Notes under the pieces: generated by a model
Database searches by the model: none
Told to the model about the DNA's origin: nothing
Seen by the model: the letters and a program-made list of their open reading frames with translations, nothing else
Source of the DNA: Candidatus Zipacnadia bacterium
Lineage (GTDB): Bacteria; Armatimonadota; Zipacnadia; Zipacnadales; UBA5352
Direction: 5' to 3'
Assembly (NCBI GenBank): GCA_029820295.1
Contig: JALGVA010000033.1
Span: 1 to 35,722 of the forward strand
Length of the DNA stretch: 35,722 nucleotides
Translations under genes and position numbers: made by a program
Shown: piece by piece, positions 6,408-33,483 of the stretch
Layout: each line of letters starts with the position of its first letter
How positions within the stretch are numbered: position 1 is the first letter of the stretch

Positions 6408-6464
6408 CCGACCGACAACGGTGCCGACAGCAACTACCGACCGATCACGCCTGGAGGAGTGGAT

Positions 6465-8822
6465 ATGTCCCGCACATTGACCATCGCCGCCATCGGCCTG
6501 CTCGCCACGTCAGTCTTCGCGCACGCCGTGACGCTTGCCGCGCCCGGACAGGCCCCGGCGCCCATCGTCCTCGCCGATGGCGCCATCGCGCCGGAACAGA
6601 CCGCCGCGGACCAGCTCGCGCACTACCTCGGCCGGGCGGCCGCAACCGAGTTCGAGATCGTCGCCGAGGCCGAGGCGCTCGCGGATACGCCCGCGATCTT
6701 CGTCGGCCCGACGGCGCGAGCCGCGGAGGCCGGCATCGACGTCGCCGCCCTGGCGGCCGAGCAGTGGATCGTGCGCACCGTGGATGATGACCTGATCATC
6801 GCCGGCGGGCGGCCGCGCGGCACGCTCTACGCCGCCTGCCACTTCCTTGAGGACGTCATCGGCGTACACTGGTGGAGTCCGTGGGCGGAGAACGTGCCAA
6901 CCATGCCGACCATCGAGGTCGCCGACCTCGACCTGAGCGGCGAGCCGGTGCTGCAGTACCGCGACATCTACACGCTCTACGGCAATGATGGCGGGGCGTT
7001 TGCGGCGCGCAACCGCCTCAACCGCCAGGGCGATGCGAAGATCGCGGGCGAGTGGGGCGGCGGCATGGATTACGGGCCGCCCTACCACGTGCACACGTTC
7101 TTCATGTACATCCGCCCGGACGAGTACTTCGAGGCGCACCCGGAGTACTTCTCGCTCATCAACGGCGAGCGCAAGGCCGAGCGCACGCAGCTCTGCCTGA
7201 CCAACCCGGAGCTGCGCGAGCTGTTCCGCGACAAGCTCATCGCGTACATCGAGCAATCGCGTGCGCAGGCCGCAGAAGCGGGCGAGCCGGCGCCGCGCGT
7301 GTTCTCGATCTCACAAAACGACTGGGGTGGCGCCTGTCAGTGCGACGTCTGTCAGGCCATCGCGCAGGCCGAGGGCTCGGAGGCCGGACCGCTGCTCGAC
7401 TTCGTGAACTACATGGCCGACGCCATCGCCGAGGACTACCCGGACGTCTACGTCAGCACGCTGGCCTACCAGTACACACAGGCGCCGCCGGCCAGCATCC
7501 GCCCGCGTGACAACGTGATCATCCGCCTGTGCGACACGACCAGCAACTTCACCCGCGCCATCACCGACCCGGAGAACGAGCAGTTCCACGACTTCCTGCT
7601 GTCCTGGGCGGAGATCGCGCCGAACCTGCGCGTGTGGGACTACGCGGTCACATATGCGGAGCCGCGCGGCATGCCCATGCCCAGCGTGCACACCTACGCG
7701 CGCGACTTCCAGTTCTACGCCGAAAACAACGTCGAGGGCGTCTTCACCGAACTGGAGTACCCGGTGCGGGCCGACATGCGCGATCTCAAGGTCTGGATGA
7801 TGATCAAGCTGCTTGAAGACCCCTACCAGGACTACGGCGCGCTGCTGGAGACCTTCACCGACGGCTTCTACGGACCCGCGGGGCCGATGATCCGCGAGTA
7901 CCTGGCGGCGCTGGAGGCGTCGTCGCAGGAGCACCTGAGCTACATCAGCATGGGCGCGGCGCTGCCCGCCTACCGCTACCTGACGCTGGACTTCGTACGC
8001 GCGGCGCACGGTATCTTCGACCGCGCGGAGGCGGCGGTGGCGGGCGACGACGAACTGCTGCAGCGTGTGCGCCACGCGCGCATGCCGCTCGACCGGGCGA
8101 CGGTGGCGCTGTTCCGCGCGCTCAGCCGGCAGTGGGCGCAGGCGGGCAACGATCCCGCGACCATCCCTCTCGACCGCGACGCCATCGCCGCGCGCTACGA
8201 GGAGACCTGGACGGTGGAGGCCGAGCGGCGTCTGTCCGGCGCGGGGGTGGAGCAGTCACTGGCGCAGTTGCAGGACGAGCTGACGCGGTGGACATCGCTG
8301 CCCGTGTTCGTGCCGCTGCCGGAGAGGTTCGCGGACCTGCCCGCCGAGCGCGTCTTCGACTTCACCGCCGACACCACCCGCAACTGGAAGGGCATCGTGC
8401 GCGTGGTCGAGGACGAGGAGGCCGAAAGCGGCATCACCAATCGCCTCGAGTTCCCGACCAAGATCGCGACCGACGACCATCCGCTGGAGCGCTACAGGCT
8501 GCCCATGCCCTGGGGCCTCTACGACCAGATCAACCGCAAGGCCGCGGGCAGCGGGACGATCAAGCCCGAGGACGTGCCGGGGCCGGGCTACCACTGGTAC
8601 AAGATGGGCGAGTTCGCGCTCGGCCAGTCCTACTACCTCTACTTCTTCTGGAGCTGGATCATCCAGGTGGACGTCGATTCCGCCTGGGATCAGGCGCGCC
8701 CCGACCGCAAGTTCGAGGTCTGGGCGCGCATCAAGTTCGAGGGCCCGGCCTTCCCCCACGGCGACGAAGCCGACCAGAACGCCATCTGCGTCGAGCGCGT
8801 GGTGCTGGTGGCGGAGGAGTAA
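6465..8822 (+). CDS. Secreted DUF4838 protein (alpha-glucuronidase-like)
   Basis: This 785-residue protein has a Sec signal peptide (positive MSRTL, hydrophobic core to about 19, probable cleavage near AHA-V). About 30-150 resembles the alpha-glucuronidase N-terminal / GH20b-like domain (AADQLAHYLGRA, then AGGRPRGTLYAACHFLEDVIGV). DUF4838 spans about 220-520, with ISQNDWGGACQCDVCQ around 284-299, a metal-like CxCxxC. The last about 150 residues are unassigned and end in a WARIKFEGP beta segment. GGAGGAG at 6453-6459 places the start at the ATG at 6465 rather than the GTG at 6459. DUF4838 proteins are common in polysaccharide-utilisation loci, usually without a proven reaction. It probably acts outside the cytoplasm on uronic-acid-type glycans, by homology only. 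Confidence 0.8.
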   Translation: MSRTLTIAAIGLLATSVFAHAVTLAAPGQAPAPIVLADGAIAPEQTAADQLAHYLGRAAATEFEIVAEAEALADTPAIFVGPTARAAEAGIDVAALAAEQWIVRTVDDDLIIAGGRPRGTLYAACHFLEDVIGVHWWSPWAENVPTMPTIEVADLDLSGEPVLQYRDIYTLYGNDGGAFAARNRLNRQGDAKIAGEWGGGMDYGPPYHVHTFFMYIRPDEYFEAHPEYFSLINGERKAERTQLCLTNPELRELFRDKLIAYIEQSRAQAAEAGEPAPRVFSISQNDWGGACQCDVCQAIAQAEGSEAGPLLDFVNYMADAIAEDYPDVYVSTLAYQYTQAPPASIRPRDNVIIRLCDTTSNFTRAITDPENEQFHDFLLSWAEIAPNLRVWDYAVTYAEPRGMPMPSVHTYARDFQFYAENNVEGVFTELEYPVRADMRDLKVWMMIKLLEDPYQDYGALLETFTDGFYGPAGPMIREYLAALEASSQEHLSYISMGAALPAYRYLTLDFVRAAHGIFDRAEAAVAGDDELLQRVRHARMPLDRATVALFRALSRQWAQAGNDPATIPLDRDAIAARYEETWTVEAERRLSGAGVEQSLAQLQDELTRWTSLPVFVPLPERFADLPAERVFDFTADTTRNWKGIVRVVEDEEAESGITNRLEFPTKIATDDHPLERYRLPMPWGLYDQINRKAAGSGTIKPEDVPGPGYHWYKMGEFALGQSYYLYFFWSWIIQVDVDSAWDQARPDRKFEVWARIKFEGPAFPHGDEADQNAICVERVVLVAEE

Positions 8823-10581: not shown

Positions 10582-12846
10582 TCAAAGCGCGTCCTGCATC
10601 TGCTCGATCGCCGCGGCGAGCGCCTCGCGCGCGTCATCCACGGCGGTCACATCCAGCGTGTAGGGCTGATCGTTGGCGGTCCGCACCACCGGCCAGCGCT
10701 CGACCAGCGACAGCGCACGGTCGATGGCCTCGCGCCCGATGCGGGCGGCGTCCGCGTTCCCCGCATCCTCAAGGCGCTGCGCGAGGTCGGCCGCCATCTC
10801 CATGTACTCGTAGTCCTCCAGGCCCTCGCGGAACAGTTCCCAGCGCACCGAATCGATGGGGCCGCGCTCGTCGGGGGTGCGGGGCGGGTACATGAGCACC
10901 CCCGAGCTGCCTGCGCCGGCGCTCCACGGGTCGGCGACGTCGCCCCGCCAGCACACCGTGCCCCACCACGAGTAGGTGCCATCGACCGCGTACGCCCGCA
11001 GCAGCCACGGCCACAGGCGCACGCGGATCGGGTTGTGCTCGGGGTAGTTGACCGCGTTGTTGTAGACCAGGATGGCGTCGCCGGCCGCGCGCGCCATCTC
11101 AATCTGTGGCACGGAGCGATCCCACGCGTCCGTGTGCAGGACCCACTGGTGCGTGACGTCGAGCAGCTCCGGGTGCGGGGACGAGACGGTGTTGGCGATC
11201 TGCAGCTCCGGCTCGATGTCGAGCAGCAGCTCGCTCAGGGCGCGGATGCCGTTGCGCGTGGGCTCGTCGTCGAGGCGCGGCTCGTCGATGAAGCGCACCG
11301 ATGGTTCAAGGCAGACCCCTGCGTCGCGTAGCGCAGCGACAAGCCGGCCCATGTACTCGCGGAAGGGCAGCTCGAATTCCGGGTTCAGCTCAGTCAGCGC
11401 GTCGTTGGCGAAGATGGCGATGCCCCGCCACTGCGCGTCGCGGGGCATGAGGTGGTCGCCGCCGTGGCCGATCCACAGCGACGGGATGTCGAAGCGCGTC
11501 GCGCCCAGTTCATCGCGCATGAACACGAGGTGCTCGATGTACTCGGCGGCGTCCAGCTCGACCCGGCCGTCCTGCACGCGCACGCGCGGCTGCACGCCCG
11601 GCGCGCAGCGGCTGCGGTGGCCGTACACGTCCTCGTAGTAGCGTCTCATGATCTCGTCCGGGTCACCGGCCTCGCGCTCCAGCACCAGGTTGAAGCGTAC
11701 GTTCGAGCGCACGTTCAGCGAGGGCCGCGCCGGGATCGCGAAATCATGGAGGTGCAGGCGCAGGGGCACGGTCACGACCGCCTCGTCGCCGACGGTCAGC
11801 GCCAACTCGCCCTCGTAGTCGCCGGGCGGCTGATCCTCGGGCACCTGCAGCGTGAACCAGAAGCCCTGGTTCACGCCGGCGGGGATGTCCACCGGGAGCA
11901 TCTCAGTGAGCGCGTCGGGGTTCAGGCCCTGGTGGCCATAGGGGCCCATGGCGCGCTGAATGTCCACGCACTCGATGCGGCGCACGCGCAAAGCATCGCG
12001 GGACAGCGTCCGCGGGCCGGAGAGAGCGCCCCAGGCGAAATCAACGGCCTGCGCGCCGTTCGTTGGCGTGACCGCGAGCTGGAAGGATTCGAACTCGCCG
12101 CGCGCGGCCGACAGCTCGACGGCCGCCAGCGGCTCGCCCGAGGGCACCTCGCGATCGGGCAGGATCTTGGTGTTCTCGTTGTCGGTCCACAGCACGCCGG
12201 CGGGGAACTTGGCGAGCAGCCGCGCGGTGTCGGCGACCTCGCGCACCTCGGCGGCGGTGACGATGACATCGTCGAGCCACAGGCGCGCGAAGGGGTTGTC
12301 GCTGGTGAGCTTGATGAGCAGGGAGACCGCGTCCTCGCCCTCGGGCGCCCGGAAGTCGCCGATGTCGGCCTGCACCCAGCCCTCCTCATCGGCGCCGCCG
12401 ACCCAGACGCCGTCGACGAACTGGCCCTGCCGGTCGGCGGGGATGGTCGGGGTCGGCAGGTAGAGCAGCGACTGCATCTCGCGCACGCCCACCGGGTAGC
12501 GCACGAAGACGGTCACGCGACTCGGGCCACCCTCGGCGCGGTAGTGCAGGCTGAGCGTGTACACCGCACCGGGCGTGACGGGGACGACGGTGCTCCAGCC
12601 GCCGTTGGGGCCTTCGAGACCGAGGCTGCGCGCGCCGGTGTGCGCGTGCTCGGTGTCCCACCAGCCCCGCGAGTCCTGCCACGAGTAGTAGCTCCAGTCG
12701 GCGGGCTCCTCCCCCGCTCCCTGCTCGAAGCTCGGGTTCGGGGCGAGGCTGACGACCTCGCCCTCCTGGGCGGCGGCGCAGCTCATCGCGAGCAGAATGA
12801 GGGGAATGAGATGACCCACCGGCCGATGCACCCGCACGTGTTCCAT
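10582..12846 (-). CDS. Secreted DUF4091 (glycoside hydrolase 123-like) protein
   Basis: This 754-residue exported protein has an N-terminal signal (hydrophobic LIPLILLAMSCAAA, cleavage near AAA-QEGE). A carbohydrate-binding-like beta-sandwich follows (NPSFEQGAGEEPADWSYYS, then a jelly-roll to about 190). Next come a beta domain starting SAARGEFESFQLAV and a DUF4091 catalytic-like barrel with SVRFIDEPRLDDEPT. The C-terminus, WELFREGLEDYEYMEMAADL, is the hallmark DUF4091 end. DUF4091 is related to GH123 N-acetylgalactosaminidases; activity here is not established. An AGGAG lies 10 nt before the ATG at 12846. A GTG at 12855 is too close to that site, so the ATG was chosen. The gene follows the L,D-transpeptidase after 27 nt. 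Confidence 0.8.
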   Translation of the reverse strand: MEHVRVHRPVGHLIPLILLAMSCAAAQEGEVVSLAPNPSFEQGAGEEPADWSYYSWQDSRGWWDTEHAHTGARSLGLEGPNGGWSTVVPVTPGAVYTLSLHYRAEGGPSRVTVFVRYPVGVREMQSLLYLPTPTIPADRQGQFVDGVWVGGADEEGWVQADIGDFRAPEGEDAVSLLIKLTSDNPFARLWLDDVIVTAAEVREVADTARLLAKFPAGVLWTDNENTKILPDREVPSGEPLAAVELSAARGEFESFQLAVTPTNGAQAVDFAWGALSGPRTLSRDALRVRRIECVDIQRAMGPYGHQGLNPDALTEMLPVDIPAGVNQGFWFTLQVPEDQPPGDYEGELALTVGDEAVVTVPLRLHLHDFAIPARPSLNVRSNVRFNLVLEREAGDPDEIMRRYYEDVYGHRSRCAPGVQPRVRVQDGRVELDAAEYIEHLVFMRDELGATRFDIPSLWIGHGGDHLMPRDAQWRGIAIFANDALTELNPEFELPFREYMGRLVAALRDAGVCLEPSVRFIDEPRLDDEPTRNGIRALSELLLDIEPELQIANTVSSPHPELLDVTHQWVLHTDAWDRSVPQIEMARAAGDAILVYNNAVNYPEHNPIRVRLWPWLLRAYAVDGTYSWWGTVCWRGDVADPWSAGAGSSGVLMYPPRTPDERGPIDSVRWELFREGLEDYEYMEMAADLAQRLEDAGNADAARIGREAIDRALSLVERWPVVRTANDQPYTLDVTAVDDAREALAAAIEQMQDAL

Positions 12847-12873
12847 GGCACTCACGCTCCTGCGGTCCGCACG

Positions 12874-14673: not shown

Positions 14674-15318
14674 CTACTCGCTCGGCGTGGTCGGGTTCCA
14701 GTAGATGTTGGTATCGAGCTGCTCCTCGCGCGCCCACTTGACGTGCCCGTCCACGAAACCGTAGATGATGCCGTCATTGTGCCGCTGCGGCCAGCGGTTG
14801 CCCAGGAAGCTGTTGTCCGACGGCGCGCCGGTCAGGTCGGCGCCGGGATCATTCATCCACCACTCCGGGCTGCCGTAGCTCGAGTCGCCCAGGCCCACCT
14901 TGCCGTCGGCGCCGATGGCCTCGGGGCGGATGTCGCCGATGATGATCTTGGTGGCCGCATCCCAGAAGCTGCCGAGGCTGACGCCGCTGGCCAGGTAGTT
15001 CAGGCCATAGCCAGGTGCGTTGTCCTTGCGGTCGGGGCAGAACATGATCTGCCGGTTGCGCGTGTAGGCGAAGATGCTGTTGTACCACTCGGATTGGGCG
15101 TCGATCGGGTTGAGGATGCCGCGCGGCATGACTTCATCATAATCCTGAGCGTACATGAGGATGGCGGTGCCGATCTGCTTGACATTGGAGATGCAGGCCG
15201 CCTGCCTGCCTTTGCCCCGCGCCCGCGAAAAGACGGGGAACAGGATGGAGGCAAGAATAGAGATGATGGCGATGACCACCAGAAGCTCGATGAGTGTGAA
15301 ACCGGTGCGTCGCTTCAT
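14674..15318 (-). CDS. Type II secretion/type IV-like prepilin (DUF1559, H-X9-DG)
   Basis: This 214-residue pseudopilin starts MKRRTGFTLIELLVVIAIIS, the standard prepilin leader: cleavage after G6, N-methylated F7, E11, then a hydrophobic helix. SRARGKGRQAACISNVKQIG follows, typical of DUF1559. The C-terminus carries an exact H-X9-DG: His of QRHNDG, nine residues, then DG of FVDGHVKW. Such proteins are highly multiplied in Planctomycetota, Lentisphaerota and Armatimonadota, and form pseudopili or surface filaments; individual roles are mostly unknown. The ATG at 15318 follows GGAGG by 9 nt. A 25-codon ORF ends 24 nt upstream. Confidence 0.93.
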   Translation of the reverse strand: MKRRTGFTLIELLVVIAIISILASILFPVFSRARGKGRQAACISNVKQIGTAILMYAQDYDEVMPRGILNPIDAQSEWYNSIFAYTRNRQIMFCPDRKDNAPGYGLNYLASGVSLGSFWDAATKIIIGDIRPEAIGADGKVGLGDSSYGSPEWWMNDPGADLTGAPSDNSFLGNRWPQRHNDGIIYGFVDGHVKWAREEQLDTNIYWNPTTPSE

Positions 15319-15454: not shown

Positions 15455-18160
15455 TCACAGAAACTTAATGAAAAGGGTGACGTCACACGGGTAGCGTCCC
15501 GCCCGCGATCCGTAGACCGTCAGCCCCCCGCGATCACTCGCTGCCCGCTCGGTGGTGAAGGTAACGCTCACCGTGCCGCCCTCAACGGCGGCCCGTGCCT
15601 GCTCACCCGCGAGCTTCGCGGTCACCAGTGTTCCGTAGCGCCCGAGCAGGCCGTGCATATGCGAAAGCGCGCCGCGCGCGTCGGCGGGCTGATCCGGCAG
15701 TTCCAGCTCTGCCGCCTCGGTCGCGCCGAGGGCCACGCGCAGGCGCGTGGGCCAGCGATCCGCCGAGGTCTGGGGCGCACCCTCCCGCGCGCTGGACAGC
15801 TCTGCCAGCACGGTTAGGGACGCTACATCTTCACCGCGGATTCCATCCGGCAGCGCGAACCGGTAGGTTAGCTCGCCATCGCCGCGTCCGGCCAGCAGGT
15901 GCGCCACGCCATCGACCTCGGCGCGCTCCACCGGGCCCTCGAAGTCGGCCTCGCCGGCCCCGGCGAGAAGGCGCAGCGCCAGCCCGCCGTCCACCGTCGC
16001 GTCTTCGTTGCCATCAACGATCTCGATGAAGCGCAGGTTCATGGCCGAGGGGCGGCCCCGGCGGTCCCGGGCCAGGGCCTCGATGCGCACCAGTCCCGGC
16101 TCCTCGGGCACGGTCACCGCGATCGAGGCACGGTCGCCTGCGACGCCCTTGAGCGCGCAGGGGCGGACCAGCACGCGCTCGTGGCCGAAGCGGTCGGTGA
16201 AGGTGGCGCGCCAGGTCGTGCGCCGGGCCAGCGATGCCGCCCGCGCCGACGGCCGCAGGAACACCGGCGTCTCGACCGTCGCTCCGGGCGCCACCGTGAT
16301 AGCCGGTACGCAGTCGAAGCCCACGAACTCCTCGCCGAGGATCAGCGCCGGATCGTAGCCGAACTGCTTCGTCCCGCGGTCATAGTCGTAGATCCCGTTG
16401 TGCTCCCACTCGATGTCGGTCAGCTCGGTGTACACGTAGCCGCACACCTGCTCGTGGCGGCGCAGTTCGTTGGTCAGGAAGAGCAGGCACCAGGAGACGT
16501 CGAGGTCGCCCATGCGCGCGGAGATGCCACCGTACTCGCTGTTGAGCAGCGGTTCATCGCCCTGCTCGTGGCCGGGGACGTAGTTGAACGGGGAGCCGGG
16601 GCGGGTCTGCGCGACCACGTGCTCAACATGCTCCCGCGCCTGCTCGCAGTCGTTGATGTAGAAGTGCCAGGAGTTGATGTCCGTGATCACGTGGTCGTAC
16701 AGGCAGGCGGAGTTGTCCTCGACCAGCCGTGTCGGGTCGAGACGCTTCGCCTCTTCGTAACAGGCGCGCACCCACTCCTGGCGTTCGGGAAGGTCGGCGT
16801 ACTCGCGTCCGCCCAGGCCCCAGGTCTCGTTGAACAGGCACCAGGCGAAGATACTGGGGTGGTTGAAGTCGCGCCGGATCTGCCCCCACGCGTTGCGCTC
16901 CCAGCGCCGCTTCGCCGGCTCCGAGTAGCCGTCATAGCCGAAGCCGGGCATGTCGCACATGAGTAGCACGCCCACGCGGTCGGCCCAGTAGCAGTAGCGC
17001 GGATCGGGCGTCTTGATGTGCAGGCGCAGGAAGTTCAGGCCCGCCTGCTTCGCCAGAAGCAGGTCGCGGCGGATGGCTTCGTTGCTCGGATGGCTGTACA
17101 CGCCCTCGGGGTGGAACGATTGGTCGAGTGCTCCGCGCAGGTAGACCGAGCGCCCGTTGAGCCGGATGTACGCCGGCCCGTCCTCATCCAGTGGCCCCAC
17201 GTCGATGTCGCGCATGCCGAACTGCGTGTGCACGGTGTCGAGCGTCTCATCATCACTCAGCACGCGCACGGTCACGCGGTACATGTGCGGCGCATCGGGC
17301 GTCCAGGGGATCGGCGCGGGGATCTCGGCGGCCAGCCGCACCTCGCCCTCCTCCCCCACACGCGCGGGGCCGACCGTGGCCACCGTCGGCCCCGCGGCGG
17401 CGCGCACATCGGCCTCGACGACGAGATCACACATTCCATCGGGAGCGCGCACCGAGACGACCAGCTCCGCCCGCTCATCCGCGAGGTCAGGCAGCACCCG
17501 CACCTCCGTCGCGTATGCCTCCCCGCGGGGCTCCAGCCAGACGGTCTGCCAGATGCCGCTGGTGCGCGTGTACCAGTTCGAGATCTGCTTGCCGATCGGC
17601 TGCTGTGAGTGATCCTCGGGGTCTTCGACGCGGATGACCAGCGTGTTCTCCCCCGCGCCGAGGGCGTCGGTCAGGTCGAACTCGATCGGCAGGTAGCCGC
17701 TCTCGGCAGCGCCGACCTCCTGCCCGTTGAGCCACACGCGCGCCTGCCAGTCGGCGGCGCCGATGATCAGCCACACGCGTCTACCGTGCCAGTCCTCGGG
17801 TAGCGTAAAGCTGCGACGGTACCACCCGACGGTGTGCCGCGCCGCCTCGCGGTAGTTGTCGCGGGTGACCGACCCCGGGTCGAGCCAGGCCTCGCGGCTG
17901 AACCAGTCGTCATTGCCGGCCTGCGCCTGTGTGCCCCAGGCCAGATGGCTCTCCCACGGGAACGGCACGACGATGGTGCGCGGGAAGGGCTCGCGCGACG
18001 GCTCCGACCAGCCCTCGCTGAGGCCACGATCATCGGGGTCGAAGGCGAAGTGCCAATCGCCGTTGAGGTTCTGCCAGTCGATCCCCGGGCGCATGCCACG
18101 GTGGAGATCGGGGCGCGGGTGCTCGGGCCGCGGCAACGAGGCGTGCGGGTTGACGGTCAT
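15455..18160 (-). CDS. Glycoside hydrolase family 2 protein
   Basis: This 901-residue protein, without a clear signal peptide, has the GH2 order. An N-terminal sugar-binding jelly-roll comes first (PFPWESHLAWG, then WHGRRVWLIIGAADWQARVW, LNGQEVG). An Ig-like domain follows, then a TIM-barrel with FHPEGVYSHPSNEAIRRDL. The acid/base is E445 in CLFNETWG and the nucleophile E542 in LNSEYGG. A C-terminal beta region follows from about 640. GH2 enzymes include beta-galactosidases, beta-glucuronidases and beta-mannosidases; the subfamily cannot be fixed here. The ATG at 18160 has a modest GGTGAG site. It is divergent from the winged-helix/KaiC unit and may head the transcript that reads through to the prepilin. 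Confidence 0.9.
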   Translation of the reverse strand: MTVNPHASLPRPEHPRPDLHRGMRPGIDWQNLNGDWHFAFDPDDRGLSEGWSEPSREPFPRTIVVPFPWESHLAWGTQAQAGNDDWFSREAWLDPGSVTRDNYREAARHTVGWYRRSFTLPEDWHGRRVWLIIGAADWQARVWLNGQEVGAAESGYLPIEFDLTDALGAGENTLVIRVEDPEDHSQQPIGKQISNWYTRTSGIWQTVWLEPRGEAYATEVRVLPDLADERAELVVSVRAPDGMCDLVVEADVRAAAGPTVATVGPARVGEEGEVRLAAEIPAPIPWTPDAPHMYRVTVRVLSDDETLDTVHTQFGMRDIDVGPLDEDGPAYIRLNGRSVYLRGALDQSFHPEGVYSHPSNEAIRRDLLLAKQAGLNFLRLHIKTPDPRYCYWADRVGVLLMCDMPGFGYDGYSEPAKRRWERNAWGQIRRDFNHPSIFAWCLFNETWGLGGREYADLPERQEWVRACYEEAKRLDPTRLVEDNSACLYDHVITDINSWHFYINDCEQAREHVEHVVAQTRPGSPFNYVPGHEQGDEPLLNSEYGGISARMGDLDVSWCLLFLTNELRRHEQVCGYVYTELTDIEWEHNGIYDYDRGTKQFGYDPALILGEEFVGFDCVPAITVAPGATVETPVFLRPSARAASLARRTTWRATFTDRFGHERVLVRPCALKGVAGDRASIAVTVPEEPGLVRIEALARDRRGRPSAMNLRFIEIVDGNEDATVDGGLALRLLAGAGEADFEGPVERAEVDGVAHLLAGRGDGELTYRFALPDGIRGEDVASLTVLAELSSAREGAPQTSADRWPTRLRVALGATEAAELELPDQPADARGALSHMHGLLGRYGTLVTAKLAGEQARAAVEGGTVSVTFTTERAASDRGGLTVYGSRAGRYPCDVTLFIKFL

Positions 18161-18346
18161 GATCTCACCGCCCGCGGCGTGCACGCACAGAACTTGCGCA
18201 TCGCCGTGGTGTTCTCTAGGGTGTCGTCGGCGGAAGGAGGCGTGCGACCAAGAGTACTTCGGCCCCAGGGGCCGACGCACCTCCGCGGACAAGGTTCTGG
18301 CAGCAAAGGAGGATTCCCGCCACGCCCGTTGAACTTCACTTAAGGT

Positions 18347-18383
18347 TGTGCTGTGCGTCTGGTGGATCGACATGCACAGCACA
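18347..18383. promoter_or_regulatory. 10-bp inverted repeat, candidate operator
   Basis: TGTGCTGTGC (18347-18356) and its exact reverse complement GCACAGCACA (18374-18383) are separated by 17 bp. They lie 26 bp before the winged-helix gene, in the 249-bp divergent gap with the GH2 gene. The geometry fits a dimeric regulator, plausibly the adjacent winged-helix protein, or an mRNA hairpin in the leader. No clear -35/-10 pair was recognised in the gap. Confidence 0.4.
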
Positions 18384-18409
18384 CAGTGGCCCACGGCGGA
18401 TGGACCGGC

Positions 18410-18799
18410 ATGGATGAGCGAGTGCGCAACTTCATCGAGGAGACCGCACAGGACCTGGTGGGCCTGGACGTCGCGCTGTTCTACCAGGCCAACCCGCGGG
18501 CCTTCGACACTGCCTCGGGGATCGCGCTGCGCACGCATCGCGCGGTCGATGAGGTGGAGCCGGCGCTCAGCCGCATGAGCGAGAACGGCTTCCTCGAGGT
18601 GCTCTCCCGCGGAGACGGGCGCTATCGCGTCTACGCGCTGTCGCCCGCGCCGGAGGCGTGGCGCACGCTGTGCCGGGTCAGCGAGGCGTACCACGAGGAC
18701 CCGGAGGCCCGCAGAGAGATCATTCTGATGCTTGTGCAGCGCCGCCTGCAGGAGCGGATGACCGGAGACGCGCCCGGCGGGGGTGGCGGCGATGGTTGA
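18410..18799 (+). CDS. Small winged-helix DNA-binding-like protein
   Basis: This is a 129-residue protein. About 15-80 reads as a winged helix: VGLDVALFYQANPRAF, a TASGIALRTHRAVDEVEPAL recognition-helix region, then MSENGFLEVLSRGDGRYRVY for the wing. It resembles the MarR/ArsR-like fold without a named family. The C-terminus is helical and ends in a Gly-rich tail. The ATG at 18410, with GGATGG upstream, is preferred over a GTG at 18353 that would lie inside the inverted repeat. Its stop codon overlaps the start of the KaiC-fusion gene by 8 nt, so the two proteins are translationally coupled and probably work together. It likely binds DNA, perhaps the repeat just upstream; no cysteine or metal-sensing site is evident. 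Confidence 0.6.
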   Translation: MDERVRNFIEETAQDLVGLDVALFYQANPRAFDTASGIALRTHRAVDEVEPALSRMSENGFLEVLSRGDGRYRVYALSPAPEAWRTLCRVSEAYHEDPEARREIILMLVQRRLQERMTGDAPGGGGGDG

Positions 18800-21419
18800 T
18801 GTGGTCAGCACGGGGATTCCCGGACTGGACGAGATCCTGGGGGGCGGCCTGCGACAGGGCTCCGTCACTCTGCTGGAGGGCATCCCCGGCACCGGTAAGA
18901 CCACGGTCGGGCTCGGCTTCCTCTACCACGGCGCGACCGCCTGCGACGAACCCGGCATCGCGATCACCTTCGAGCAGTTCCCCGAGCAGATGATCGCCGA
19001 CGCCGCGCAGTTTGGCTGGGATTTCGCCGACCTCGAGGCCGGCGGGATGGTGCGCATCATGTGCACCTCGCCCGACGTCTTCCTCGACCAGCTCAGCGAG
19101 GTGGGCGGGGTGGTGGACCGCATCCTGCGTGAGATGGACGCGCGTCGCGTGCTCATCGACAGCGCCTCACACCTGCAGCAGATCACCCCCGACCCCAACC
19201 AGCACCGCGCGCTGTTCTACAGCATGATCAACGGCCTCAAGCGCGCGGGCCTGACCACCATCGTCACCAAGGAATTCGAGTCCACCGAGGCAACCCAGAT
19301 CCCCTTCGAGGAGTACCTGTGCGACTCGGTGGTGCGGCTGGACAACCGCATGGTCGGCAACTTCCGCCGCCGCCGCTTCATCGAGGTCATCAAGTCCCGG
19401 GGCATGGCCCACCGCAGCGGCCGCCACGGCTTCGAACTTAGTGACAGCGGGCCGCGCGTCTACCCCCGCTATGATCCGGCACCGCGGCCGCTCGCCGAGG
19501 CGTGCCCGATCGACAAGCTGTCCACCGGCGTGGCCGGCCTCGACCGCATGCTCGCAGGCGGGCTGCTGGCCGGGAGCGCGACGCTGGTCGCGGGCAGCGC
19601 CGGCGTGGGCAAGACCACGCTGGGCCTGCAGTTCATCTGCGAGGGTGCCCGCGCGGGCGAGCCGGGCGTCTACGTGACCTTCGAGGAGTCCCCGACCAAG
19701 CTGTCATGCCAGGCGGCCGGCTTCGGCCTCGACCTGCAGGCGCACCGCGACAACGGGACGATCTCGGTGGTGCACAACTTCCCGGTGTCGGTGCACTTCG
19801 AGAAGCTGCTGACGCAGATCAGTGACGAGGTCGACCGCATCGGCGCGCGGCGGCTGGTGTTCGACAGCCTGACCGACCTGGACATGGCCTTCGGCGGCGA
19901 TGACGGCCTGCGCGAGGCCATGTACGAACTGGTGAGCATGCTCGACAGCCGCGGGGTCACGAGCATCATCGTGACCGAGGTGCCCGAGCTGTTCGGGCAG
20001 ACGCACGTCAGCGGCAAGCACCTGTCGATCATCGTTGACGGCATCATCTTGATGAAGTACCTCGAGCTGGAGAGCGAGATCCAGCGTGCGCTGTCGGTGC
20101 TCAAGATGCGCGGCTCGGGGCACGATACGGGCATCTGGCGCTACGTGATCCACAGCCGAGGCATCGACGTGCTCAGCCGCTTCGAGGGCGCCGAAGGGCT
20201 GATGGCGGGCGCGGCGCGCACCACCACCGTCGCCCTGTCGGTGCGCAGCTTCTCCGAGTTCGACGAGAGCCTCAACGCCGAGCTGCTCCAGCGCTTCTCG
20301 CAGGTGCACCCCAACGTGTCGCCGGTCTCGCTGAACCTCCCCTACAACCCCGACGAGGCGCTGGAGACGGTGCGCACCGCCCTGCGCGCCGAGAGCACGC
20401 AGCTCTCAGTCGCGCCGCTGTGCCTGTACTGGACGCCCGACGTGGTGCGCTCGCGACGCCTGCGCGAACTCGATGACCTGCTCCCCGACGAGGAGATCGA
20501 CCAACACATCCCGGAGATCGTCGAGCCGGGGATGGACGGCGGAACGCTCTACGCCATCCCGGCGATCGCGGTGTGCGGGGCGCTGCTGTTCCGGCGCGAC
20601 CTGCTCGACAAGCACGGCTTCCAGGCCCCACCGGCGACCTGGGACGAGCTGATCGAGCAGTCGCTGAAGGTGATGCGGGACGAGGGCTGCGATGACCTCA
20701 TCGGCCTGCAGTTCCCCGGCTACATGTACGAGGGCCTGAGCACGTCGTTCCTCACCGGGCTGTGGAGCAACGGCGGCGCGGTGGTGGCGGAGGACGGCTC
20801 GTGCGGGCTCGGCGGGGCGTCGGCGCAGGAGACCGTGCAGACGATGCACGACGTCATCCACGAGCACCGGATCACGCCGTTGAGCGTGACCACCTACAAC
20901 GGCGGGCTGGAGCCCCAGGCGGACTTCATCGAGGGCCGCACGCTCTTCCTCTACATGCTGCCCAGCGTGCTGCAGGAGACCAACCGGCCGGAGAGCCCGC
21001 TGCAGGGCAAGGTGGGCGTCGCGCCGCCGCCGCGCGGCCCCCACGGCGACCGCGGATACAGCTTCCTGGGCGGCTGGCACTTCGGCATCCCCGTCAACGC
21101 CAAGGCGCCGGTGGCGGCGGGTGAGTTCATCCGCTTCATGGCCAGCGCCGAGGTGCAGAAGGAACGGGCCATGCGCGGCGGGCCGCTGCCCACCATCGGC
21201 TCGCTCTATCGCGACCCCGACGTGCTGGCCTTCAACCCGCACTACCCGGTCCTGTACGAGCTGCTGCGCAGTGCGCGCAAGCGCCACGAGATCCCGCGCT
21301 ACCTCAAGGTCTCGCGCACGATCCAGCGGCGCCTGCACCCGGTCCTCACCGGCGACGCCGCGCCCGCCGAGGCGCTCGACGCCCTCTACGAGGACGTCGG
21401 CAGGCTGATCGAGCAGTAG
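18792..21419 (+). CDS. Double KaiC-domain ATPase fused to an ABC-type solute-binding domain
   Basis: This is an 875-residue protein. KaiC domain 1 (about 3-225) begins STGIPGLDEILGGGL, has Walker A GIPGTGKTT (30-38) and Walker B RRVLIDS, but reads FEQ (E61, Q62) where KaiC usually has two glutamates. Domain 2 (about 241-470) begins STGVAGLDRMLAGGL, has Walker A GSAGVGKTT (268-276), the intact pair E298-E299 and Walker B RRLVFDSLTD, then KMRGSGHDTGIWRY. From about 477 to the end lies a full-length MalE/UgpB-like family 1 solute-binding domain: YWTPDV, LYAIPAIAVCGALLFRRDLL, PATWDELIE and GGWHFGIPV, ending in the typical C-terminal helices. No signal peptide or membrane segment precedes either part, so the binding domain should be cytosolic. 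The ATG at 18792 overlaps the winged-helix stop; a GTG at 18783 is possible. It may couple ligand binding to ATP-dependent assembly; function unknown. Confidence 0.9.
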   Translation: MVDVVSTGIPGLDEILGGGLRQGSVTLLEGIPGTGKTTVGLGFLYHGATACDEPGIAITFEQFPEQMIADAAQFGWDFADLEAGGMVRIMCTSPDVFLDQLSEVGGVVDRILREMDARRVLIDSASHLQQITPDPNQHRALFYSMINGLKRAGLTTIVTKEFESTEATQIPFEEYLCDSVVRLDNRMVGNFRRRRFIEVIKSRGMAHRSGRHGFELSDSGPRVYPRYDPAPRPLAEACPIDKLSTGVAGLDRMLAGGLLAGSATLVAGSAGVGKTTLGLQFICEGARAGEPGVYVTFEESPTKLSCQAAGFGLDLQAHRDNGTISVVHNFPVSVHFEKLLTQISDEVDRIGARRLVFDSLTDLDMAFGGDDGLREAMYELVSMLDSRGVTSIIVTEVPELFGQTHVSGKHLSIIVDGIILMKYLELESEIQRALSVLKMRGSGHDTGIWRYVIHSRGIDVLSRFEGAEGLMAGAARTTTVALSVRSFSEFDESLNAELLQRFSQVHPNVSPVSLNLPYNPDEALETVRTALRAESTQLSVAPLCLYWTPDVVRSRRLRELDDLLPDEEIDQHIPEIVEPGMDGGTLYAIPAIAVCGALLFRRDLLDKHGFQAPPATWDELIEQSLKVMRDEGCDDLIGLQFPGYMYEGLSTSFLTGLWSNGGAVVAEDGSCGLGGASAQETVQTMHDVIHEHRITPLSVTTYNGGLEPQADFIEGRTLFLYMLPSVLQETNRPESPLQGKVGVAPPPRGPHGDRGYSFLGGWHFGIPVNAKAPVAAGEFIRFMASAEVQKERAMRGGPLPTIGSLYRDPDVLAFNPHYPVLYELLRSARKRHEIPRYLKVSRTIQRRLHPVLTGDAAPAEALDALYEDVGRLIEQ

Positions 21420-30522: not shown

Positions 30523-33483
30523 CTACTCCCGGCGGGCCAGCCAGCGGATGGCGTTCAGCAGCAGGTCGCGTTCGCAGCCCTCGGGTACGACTTCGGCGTC
30601 GGATGGCGACAGGCCGGTGGCCATCCCCCACGCCACATAGCGCCCCTCCCCCACCTCGCCCACGACGACCACCGCGTTGCCCGCGCTGTCGGCAACGACG
30701 GTGGTGCCCGCGTCATCGGGCTGCAGGTAGATGTGATCGTAGTAGCTGTGCGCGAAGTCCTCGCCGAGGCCCTCGCCCGCGGTCAGCGGATGCTCGGCCA
30801 CGACCGTCAGCCCGGTCTCACGGATGCGGTCGATGCCGGTCGCGACCTCCGGGAAGAGCGGCTCGTAGCCGCGCACGCCCACCGCATCGTGCGTCACCAG
30901 CACGCCGCCGCCCGCGCGAGCGAACTCCCGCAGGGCCTGCCAGGCGCCGTCCGGCAGGGACGCCGCGCCGTCGCGCAGTTGCGCGAGGATGACTACCTCA
31001 CACGGCGCGAGGAAGTCGGCGGTCACCCGGTGGAGAGCGAGGGCCTCGATGTCCTCGGCGTCGGCGAGCGCCTGCAGCATCCCCTCGCTGCCGTAGCCGC
31101 CAGCGACGATGCCCACGTGCACGCCGTCGCTCGCGAAGGCCGGCGGGGTCATCGTGGCCTGCAGCGCGGCCTGCTCCTCAGGCGCGAGGATGGTGATCGG
31201 GCGGCTGCGCAGATAGAACGGCTCCTCGTGGCCATCGTTGAAGACGACCTCGCCTCGCACGATCAGGCTGAAGATGCCCGGCTGGGGGGCGACCTCGGCG
31301 ATGATCTCGCAGGTACGTGCCCCGGCGGAGGTGTACGGGGCCAACACATCCGGCTCGCCACCGCGTGCGGGCATCAGCAGGGGCTGCGCGTTGACCCGCG
31401 TCACGTCGCCGCCGGTCGCGCTCACGGTGATCGGCACGGTCAGCGTGGCGCCGGCGGCGTAGGTGCGCGCCATGTCGGCGATGCCCTGCGGATAGGCGAA
31501 GCTCGCGGCCGCCGACTGCCAGTGGTGGGGCATGCGATCGACGAGCGTTGCGGTCGCGCCCAGGGCGACCCTCTGCATGAGCGCGTTCGAGAAGTCGGTC
31601 AGCGAGAACACCAGAAAGCCGTCGGCCCCCAGCTCGCGCGCGACCATGATCTGCTCGGACAGGTTGGCGGCGCTGTCCGAGCGCGTGGGCGAGACGCCGA
31701 TGCCGGCGTAGACCGGGACCGCTCCGTCGATGACTTCCATCTGCGGCGCCAGCTTGCCACGGAAGACCTCGACGTCGCCCGTGTAATCCATCGGGCAGAG
31801 GAAGTCGAGGTAGCCCTCACGCGCCCACGTCATCCAGTCCTGTGCGTCGTTCTCGGGCGCGCCGGTGACGCTGGCGCGTGCAGCGAGCGAGATCTGAATG
31901 TCGGGGTCGATGGCCGCGATGCGCTCGCGCATCTCCGCGACCAGCGAGGTCTGCAGGTAGCGACGCCAGTCGCGGTAGAGCGCGACGTGCTCGCCGCCCT
32001 CCCAGCAGTCGGCGGGCCAGTTCTCGACTGTGATGCCTGCCCACTCCTCGAAGAGGCGATGGCAGCGCTCGCAGTAGCAGTAGCGGTTCGACGGGTAGCG
32101 CATGAAGTCATAGTGAATGCCGTCGGGATGGTAGTTGCGCGCCAGCTCCTCCATCGCGTCGATCTCAAGCCGGCGGTTGCGCTCGTCCGAGGGGTCCAGC
32201 CAGCGCCGGCTCCACACGTACTGCCGGTCGCGCTCCTCCTCGCCCATCGCCTGCTCGACGCTGAGGACGAAACGCCCGTCCTCGAACCACTGATCGATGA
32301 GCCCCTCCGGCGCGCGATAGACCTGCCAGTTGCCGCGCCAGACGTGGACTTCGATGCCGTGCGCGTGCGCCGCCTCCATGCATGCGGCCATCTGATCGCT
32401 CTCAGTGATCTGCGGCAGGACTGCGCTCGGGTAGACGGCCGATCCCGGCGTGCACATGTTCGGGAAGACCGCGGTGAAGTGCGCGCGCTGCAGGTCGGCC
32501 ATGATCGCGTCCCAATCGGTGGTGTCGCTCGGCATGCCCATCCAGGCGCCGCGCATCTCGAACGGCCGCGACGGGTAGGTGGCCGCGACCGCCGATTGCA
32601 CGGTCTGCGCGAAGCGCTGCGCGAGGACCAACGCATCGCTGAAGCGCTCCTGGGCGAGGGCCGTGCGTGCCCCAACGGCCTCAGTGCGAGCCCGCGCGAC
32701 CAGGTCACGCGCGGTCGCGGAGCCCGCTGAGGCGGCGGCGAGCGCGTCGAGGCTGTCATGGCCGGTTGTGGCGATGGCGCCGGCCAGCGCGTCGTCGATG
32801 ATCCGCTGCCACGCGCCGGGGACGAAGTGCCCGATGGTCGCCAGCAGCAAGTGGTGCTGAGCGGCGGTGTCGGCATCCGGCCACAGCACGTGCGCGACGT
32901 AGAGGCTGTGATCGGTGAGGATGACCGCGGGCGTGCCGGTGCTCCGGCCCTCGCTGTCCAGCCAGTCGGCCAGCACGCGCGCGTCGTCGGTCAGCTCCGA
33001 CACGTAGTCACAGCTCATCGACGCCTGGCGCACGCGCTGGGGGAAGCCCGGCGGGGCGTCGTCGGCGAAGACCATGGTGTCGAGCTGGCCGGGATACTCG
33101 TTGCGGCGGTACTCCATGTGCGCGATGCCCAGCGCCTCCTGCAGGGCGCCGGGCACGGTGAAGAACCACATGACCTTGCCGCCGCCGGCGATGTACTCGA
33201 GGATCGCGGCGGTGTGCTCGGGCGTGGTGTCGATGGTGAAGGGGAAGATCGCCAGCTTGTAGTCGGCGAGCGCACCTTCGACGATCTGCTCGTCGGTGAC
33301 GATGTCGTACTCGACGGCGTTGGCGTCGAGGCCGCGCTTGACCGCCTGGTAGTAGGTGTCGATTCCCGATGTGGGGTGCTTCTCGACGGAGAAGGTCGCG
33401 TGCACCAGCGCGACATCGGCCGCATCGGTCAGCGATGCCAGCGCCATCAGCACTCCGACAAGCGCCATCGTCCGAGCCATCAT
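30523..33483 (-). CDS. Secreted GHL10-like glycoside-hydrolase protein with amidotransferase-like domains
   Basis: This 986-residue protein has a signal peptide (MMARTMALVGVLMALASLTDA). About 22-250 resembles an amidotransferase-like beta-galactosidase-trimerisation domain (LAIFPFTIDTTPEHTAAILE). About 320-690 is a GHL10/DUF187 barrel: FEMRGAWMGMPSDTTDW, HAHGIEVHVWRGNWQVY, NYHPDGIHYDFMRYPSNR and a CYCERC knuckle, then FLCPMDYTGDVEVF. A beta domain follows. The C-terminal about 190 residues repeat the amidotransferase-like fold (VGIVAGGYGSEGMLQAL, then ALREFARAGGGVLVTHDAVG). Start: ATG at 33483, with AGGAG 6 nt upstream; 3 nt separate it from alr. Extracellular glycan cleavage is likely; the bond is unknown. 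Confidence 0.8.
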   Translation of the reverse strand: MMARTMALVGVLMALASLTDAADVALVHATFSVEKHPTSGIDTYYQAVKRGLDANAVEYDIVTDEQIVEGALADYKLAIFPFTIDTTPEHTAAILEYIAGGGKVMWFFTVPGALQEALGIAHMEYRRNEYPGQLDTMVFADDAPPGFPQRVRQASMSCDYVSELTDDARVLADWLDSEGRSTGTPAVILTDHSLYVAHVLWPDADTAAQHHLLLATIGHFVPGAWQRIIDDALAGAIATTGHDSLDALAAASAGSATARDLVARARTEAVGARTALAQERFSDALVLAQRFAQTVQSAVAATYPSRPFEMRGAWMGMPSDTTDWDAIMADLQRAHFTAVFPNMCTPGSAVYPSAVLPQITESDQMAACMEAAHAHGIEVHVWRGNWQVYRAPEGLIDQWFEDGRFVLSVEQAMGEEERDRQYVWSRRWLDPSDERNRRLEIDAMEELARNYHPDGIHYDFMRYPSNRYCYCERCHRLFEEWAGITVENWPADCWEGGEHVALYRDWRRYLQTSLVAEMRERIAAIDPDIQISLAARASVTGAPENDAQDWMTWAREGYLDFLCPMDYTGDVEVFRGKLAPQMEVIDGAVPVYAGIGVSPTRSDSAANLSEQIMVARELGADGFLVFSLTDFSNALMQRVALGATATLVDRMPHHWQSAAASFAYPQGIADMARTYAAGATLTVPITVSATGGDVTRVNAQPLLMPARGGEPDVLAPYTSAGARTCEIIAEVAPQPGIFSLIVRGEVVFNDGHEEPFYLRSRPITILAPEEQAALQATMTPPAFASDGVHVGIVAGGYGSEGMLQALADAEDIEALALHRVTADFLAPCEVVILAQLRDGAASLPDGAWQALREFARAGGGVLVTHDAVGVRGYEPLFPEVATGIDRIRETGLTVVAEHPLTAGEGLGEDFAHSYYDHIYLQPDDAGTTVVADSAGNAVVVVGEVGEGRYVAWGMATGLSPSDAEVVPEGCERDLLLNAIRWLARRE

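Follow-up and report, generated by a model that had tools for sequence, protein, structure and literature searches.

The window (the whole stretch of DNA analysed; 35,722 nucleotides, contig JALGVA010000033.1 of Candidatus Zipacnadia bacterium, assembly GCA_029820295.1) carries two overlapping plus-strand genes, one for a small winged-helix protein and one for a double-domain KaiC ATPase joined in frame to a solute-binding protein (SBP) domain, with a glycoside hydrolase gene reading away from them on the other strand:

18410..18799, plus strand: putative winged-helix (MarR-type) protein, 129 aa; its 3' end overlaps the fusion start by 8 bp
18792..21419, plus strand: KaiC-KaiC-SBP fusion gene, 875 aa
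18792..19481, plus strand: KaiC CI domain, residues 1-230; Walker A 30-38, Walker B D123, E61, K201/R203
19512..20189, plus strand: KaiC CII domain, residues 241-466; Walker A 268-276, E298/E299, D358, S412 (equivalent to KaiC S431), K438/R440
20190..20225, plus strand: A-loop-equivalent and linker between CII and SBP, residues 467-478
20226..21416, plus strand: SBP domain, residues 479-875, of the trehalose/maltose-binding subfamily, with a remodelled pocket
15455..18220, minus strand: GH2 glycoside hydrolase gene (context only), divergent from the operon; true start estimated at about 18200, the listed open reading frame being over-extended to 18904

The fusion frame runs for 875 codons without a stop. 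Pfam places two KaiC domains (E 5e-106) ahead of SBP_bac_1 at residues 491–790 (E 8e-25; SBP_bac_8, E 3e-20). Both KaiC domains exceed the cut-off for PF06745 and have Walker A and B motifs, and the SBP_bac_1 (PF01547) score of 88.9 bits compares with a cut-off of 26, the two-lobe fold being complete. With a profile of relatives, the KaiC half aligned to clock KaiC structures up to about residue 469 (E about 1e-70 to 1e-82), and the SBP half (about 479–875), from first strand to last helix, aligned over almost the full length of MalE3 6dtq (E 1.7e-76) and nearly the whole fold of the trehalose/maltose-binding protein (TMBP) 1eu8 (E 4.8e-71). KaiC was also the top Foldseek match of the AlphaFold model of the whole protein; in that model (pTM 0.57) the arrangement of the domains is undefined, the SBP N-lobe is of lower confidence, and pLDDT falls below 50 at residues 468–477. 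Alignment of the homologues showed, in and just before the linker, residues R463, F464, E465, G466, G469 and G473 to be invariant.

Solute-binding proteins usually work outside the cell. The fusion has no N-terminal signal, since it begins at the KaiC domain, as do all its homologues, and it contains no segment with a 19-residue mean hydropathy above 1.52; nor did Pfam find a permease family beside it among the scanned window proteins. The signal peptide, lipobox and partner permease genes expected of a family 1 SBP, which separate the trehalose/maltose SBPs from this domain attached to a cytosolic ATPase, are thus missing. An exported SBP with a mis-called start was rejected, because KaiC opens every homologue and the frame runs on uninterrupted. 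The first-pass annotation had described an in-frame union of two KaiC domains with a full SBP domain, from first strand to last helices, lacking a signal peptide, and on all these points our results agree with it.

We examined if the fusion occurs in related genomes. Among 41 genomes from the order, 22 carried it (20 over all or nearly all of its length, 2 as contig-end fragments spanning the junction), as did one genome elsewhere in the class (G042), for a total of 23 genomes, i.e., the window genome and 22 others, whose fusions are 50–81% identical to that of the window. All 10 genomes of its own family are carriers, as are members of most other families of the order; those records that bear a name are Candidatus Zipacnadia, candidate division WS1 or UBA5352 bins, Zipacnadia being a class of Armatimonadota. 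At the score used, no fusion was seen in the remainder of the 291 Armatimonadota genomes searched, where matches were to the KaiC half only or, in one sample of genomes, to the SBP half only. A scan across all phyla used patterns suited to close relatives only, so that distant fusions outside Armatimonadota may escape it, and among 888 plasmid records matching the fusion query none covered 80% of it. The alignment of the 23 sequences is 881 columns long, compared to 875 residues in the window protein, with few indels and a conserved linker.

The source assembly is fragmented (331 contigs), which is the one point in favor of an assembly or frameshift artefact joining two genes; against it, 23 genomes share the same junction and the same linker without stops at the divergence noted above, leaving such an artefact a negligible chance. 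An assembly join near position 20220, raised in the first-pass annotation as a finding that would count against the fusion, is excluded by the 23 genomes that read through the junction; nor are the two parts always separate genes, the KaiC half of this lineage standing alone only in one genome, G016.

In a maximum-likelihood tree of the KaiC half, all fused rows group with one unfused row, that of G016, which nests among them (group support 92/93, below the starred threshold). Given this nesting, one gain and one loss is the simplest reading, and the fusion probably arose once and was then inherited vertically. The G016 locus (L058) keeps the winged-helix gene and the KaiC, the protein ending right after the KaiC C-terminus, and has lost the SBP half; matches to an SBP remnant near this KaiC were at chance level only, and relocation of the SBP nearby was therefore rejected. 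Since G016 keeps regulator and KaiC without the SBP, the latter is dispensable in at least one lineage. Mean pairwise distance is 0.430 for the KaiC half and 0.418 for the SBP half, and the distances of the two halves are correlated (Mantel r 0.95, 0 of 2000 permutations). In its rate of divergence the fused SBP is close to a free lipoprotein-type SBP from the same genomes (for example, 77% versus 74% identity between G000 and G005), indicating ordinary functional constraint on it; together with the matching distances of the halves, this rate argues that selection maintains both as one protein. A decaying SBP was rejected on the same rate, and because cleft residues are invariant.

Within the KaiC half, the Walker A and B residues of both domains are invariant among the homologues, as are K201/R203, K438/R440, E61 and E299 (E299, D358, S412, K438 and R440 being the same residue in 23/23 rows), and the Walker A positions given in the first-pass annotation, 30–38 and 268–276, are correct. 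E318 is catalytic in KaiC (PMC2777353); its equivalent in the fusion, E298, is Glu in 21 of 23 sequences and Gln in 2. In CI the second Glu (62) is Q in 15/22 and E in 7/22 homologues. With regard to the phosphosite pair of clock KaiC, S431/T432, the S431 equivalent (S412) is invariant, the T432 position is Ile/Val, and the T426 position is Ser/Thr in 22/23. From these residues ATP hydrolysis by the fusion appears plausible, and single-site autophosphorylation perhaps plausible; the ring may not be an autokinase, because it has no T432 equivalent and in CI the second catalytic Glu is often Q.

The gene at 18410–18799 had been missed in the first-pass annotation because a longer, over-extended reverse open reading frame (15455–18904) covers it. 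A winged-helix gene lies upstream of the fusion at each of the 22 loci with upstream sequence, and upstream of the unfused G016 KaiC; it is single copy in the window genome. The AlphaFold model (pLDDT 92) has the order helix-helix-strand-helix-helix-strand-strand-helix-helix, i.e., a winged helix with flanking helices, and its top Foldseek matches are of the MarR family (best E about 5e-4), so that a MarR-type fold is predicted. The window protein itself gave no significant Pfam match and did not reach the MarR cut-off, and 5 of 15 homologues reached MarR_2, weakly (best 0.007). Profile matches to Photorhabdus lectins in the PDB were judged spurious, as they cover short N-terminal stretches of the lectin chains and contradict the predicted fold. 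Several unfused KaiCs of the phylum have a distant, weak relative of the gene immediately upstream; the stronger scores of these relatives are not independent, because the later profile already included most of them. Their position suggests that the regulator-KaiC pair is probably older than the SBP sensor. By eye, no conserved operator was evident in the 300-base stretches upstream of the winged-helix gene at 23 loci.

The nearest kin of the SBP domain, judged by sequence, are the trehalose/maltose binders (6dtq MalE3, 1eu8 TMBP, Thermus 6jar and LpqY), with which it shares the whole fold and the hinge. LpqY contacts trehalose through D80, N134, E241, W259 and R404, and mutants of E241, W259 and R404 lose binding (PMC7949145). 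Two such landmarks are retained in the fusion, W295 of TMBP as W762 and the hinge Arg, R404 of LpqY, as R831, each kept in every or nearly every homologue; three other sugar-contact positions differ, the D70 (Thermus protein)/D80 (LpqY) position being C544, which is invariant, the D123/N134 position V/L594, and the W257/W259 position, a stacking Trp, L723. In these comparisons TMBP residue roles except that of W295 (PMC13311272), and matches to LpqY numbering except D80, are our own mapping. E489, D491, C544, Y546, W547, Y646, E647, W658 and N660 of the cleft region are invariant, the cleft-lining role of all of these but C544 being assigned from sequence position. The remodelled pocket (Asp to Cys, Trp to Leu) makes it probable that the ligand is not trehalose or maltose, and the sugar proposed as ligand in the first-pass annotation is weakened accordingly. 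A pocket constant in the family and unlike those of sugar binders suggests one particular, probably non-maltose ligand; with three sugar-contact positions changed it may bind no sugar, or nothing.

Several genes around the operon are related to glycans, at 6459–8822, 10582–12855, 15455–18220 and 30523–33483 of the window (DUF4838, GH123-like, GH2, and GHL10 with a weak ThuA match). A divergent GH2 gene borders the operon in the window and in about ten relatives, comprising most of its own family plus G022 and G032 (Pfam on a sample, the rest grouped by BLAST). Elsewhere in the order the neighbor is an S24-peptidase-like gene, an HD-domain gene or histidinol dehydrogenase. A prepilin-like DUF1559 protein with an N-terminal methylation motif (14674–15318) is a neighbor in much of the family. 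In G042 (L067), the fusion is followed by a response-regulator receiver-like gene, after which come another receiver-like gene and another KaiC, this one unfused, about 4 kb downstream.

We compared the fusion with systems already described. Over fusion residues 1–469 the CI-CII arrangement, both Walker A/B pairs, the K-x-R-G motif and the S431 equivalent are shared with the KaiCs of Synechococcus and Rhodobacter (PDB 8DBA). In Synechococcus, KaiA holds the A-loop out, giving faster nucleotide exchange and autophosphorylation, and in Rhodobacter KaiC regulation depends on an older element, a C-terminal tail beside the A-loop (PMC10076222). This C-terminal A-loop region, the regulation site of the KaiABC and KaiBC systems, is where the fusion, through a flexible linker, carries its SBP, a 397-residue domain where clock KaiCs have a KaiA-binding or coiled-coil tail; unlike in those systems, no KaiB was found in its genome, its T432 equivalent is gone, and its partner is instead a winged-helix protein. 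In Haloferax, the KaiC-like CirA and a transcription factor encoded nearby, CsmR, act in one pathway (PMC13286277), which is a precedent for an ATPase gene near a DNA-binding regulator gene and for the output proposed below; CirA has no described SBP, whereas the fusion and winged-helix genes overlap and are always paired. Other proteins of the phylum likewise join an SBP to another protein: L072, L073, L074 and L088 (about 800–860 aa; L073 by Pfam, the others by eye) have an N-terminal SBP and a C-terminal permease, and in contrast to the KaiC fusion such proteins have a signal-like N-terminus and are ordinary importers. A free SBP in G012 (L087; 395-aa open reading frame, minus strand), apparently without a signal peptide, is possibly another cytosolic SBP, and starts a few bases after a gene resembling, by eye, a short-chain dehydrogenase. 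A double KaiC of 620 aa in G277 (L081:2023-3882, minus strand) ends in a C-terminal cupin (Cupin_2, 2e-19), suggesting that C-terminal sensor domains on KaiC recur in Armatimonadota.

The reading we consider best, at roughly 55%, is that the fusion is a cytosolic ligand-gated KaiC signalling switch read out by the winged-helix regulator. Being encoded together with a DNA-binding partner, it is probably an intracellular switch leading from a small molecule through a KaiC machine to genes; a one-protein ligand-gated device would fit the conservation, the catalytic residues, the co-evolving halves and the operon. The two KaiC domains would form an ATP-hydrolysing, probably hexameric double ring (the hexamer being suggested by the conserved motifs), with six Venus-flytrap SBP domains hanging off the C-terminal face of the CII ring, attached straight to the A-loop-equivalent. 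When the SBP closes on a small molecule in the cytosol, the A-loop-equivalent would be pulled or let go, and with it ATPase turnover and S412 phosphorylation would change; the co-translated MarR-type protein might read the state of the ring by being bound, released or modified by it, and regulate transcription. A fuller version, to which we give somewhat less than an even chance, holds that a nutrient-transport receptor was captured as the cytosolic input of KaiC, a metabolite moving the A-loop and setting ATPase activity or phosphorylation in replacement of KaiA/KaiB, with the winged-helix protein as direct output.

The remodelled pocket could also mean that the SBP takes no small ligand and is a rigid interaction or assembly module on the KaiC ring, e.g., docking the winged-helix protein or linking rings. 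The three sugar-contact positions that became non-polar or Cys are in keeping with this, as is the lineage that dispensed with the SBP, and the C-terminal extension of a KaiC can be structural, a coiled-coil tail linking two Rhodobacter KaiC hexamers (PMC10076222). A surface scaffold would not need the conservation of cleft-lining residues, R831 and W762 among them, in every or nearly every homologue, several being invariant, and we regard this alternative as unlikely, though the strongest of those considered. The same replaced contacts weigh against a reading in which the ligand is a sugar, freed or imported for glycan breakdown, and the fusion controls the nearby GH2 genes via the winged-helix protein. 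The kinship of the SBP with trehalose/maltose binders, the divergent GH2 gene in the window and about ten relatives and the further glycan genes all speak for it; since only two families have the GH2 neighbor, a link to glycan use could hold for that branch only, and as a general account we think it rather improbable.

Less probable still, with only a slight chance, is a KaiC-type timer or clock component having the SBP as metabolic input. In its favor, the nearest solved relatives, by profile search (E 1e-73 to 1e-82) and Foldseek, are clock KaiCs. However, no KaiB (PF07689, E<=0.001) was found in a genome 98.6% complete, the Thr site is missing, and the scores fall short of the NCBIfam clock-KaiC cut-offs (TIGR02655 / PRK09302; 259.5 of 546 bits and 342.3 of 408 bits); a clock protein proper was rejected for these reasons.

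Returning to the ligand-gated switch, the statement in the first-pass annotation that no described system has this architecture holds within the papers and collections searched, among which the Makarova 2017 survey of KaiC-like ATPases is not included; neither a KaiC-SBP fusion nor KaiC in Armatimonadota was the subject of any paper found in that literature. According to PMC5520375, a survey from 2017, bacterial KaiCs are nearly all around 500 residues long and do not exceed 741, which places the 875-residue fusion outside the forms described there. The fusion is real, conserved and unreported in the papers searched, and gives a known ATPase family a new domain architecture.

To our knowledge, little has been established about the inputs and outputs of most KaiC-like ATPases outside cyanobacteria. 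In this protein the sensor is part of the ATPase chain itself, and the gene for the likely output overlaps the beginning of the fusion gene, so that input, machine and output can be tested together. If the proposal is true, the KaiC superfamily would have a new route of input and solute-binding proteins a new role, a binding fold of the periplasm serving in the cytosol as allosteric input to a RecA/KaiC ring. It would also be a natural example in which to compare the ways that different C-terminal attachments (KaiA, coiled-coil, cupin, SBP) act on one and the same ring.
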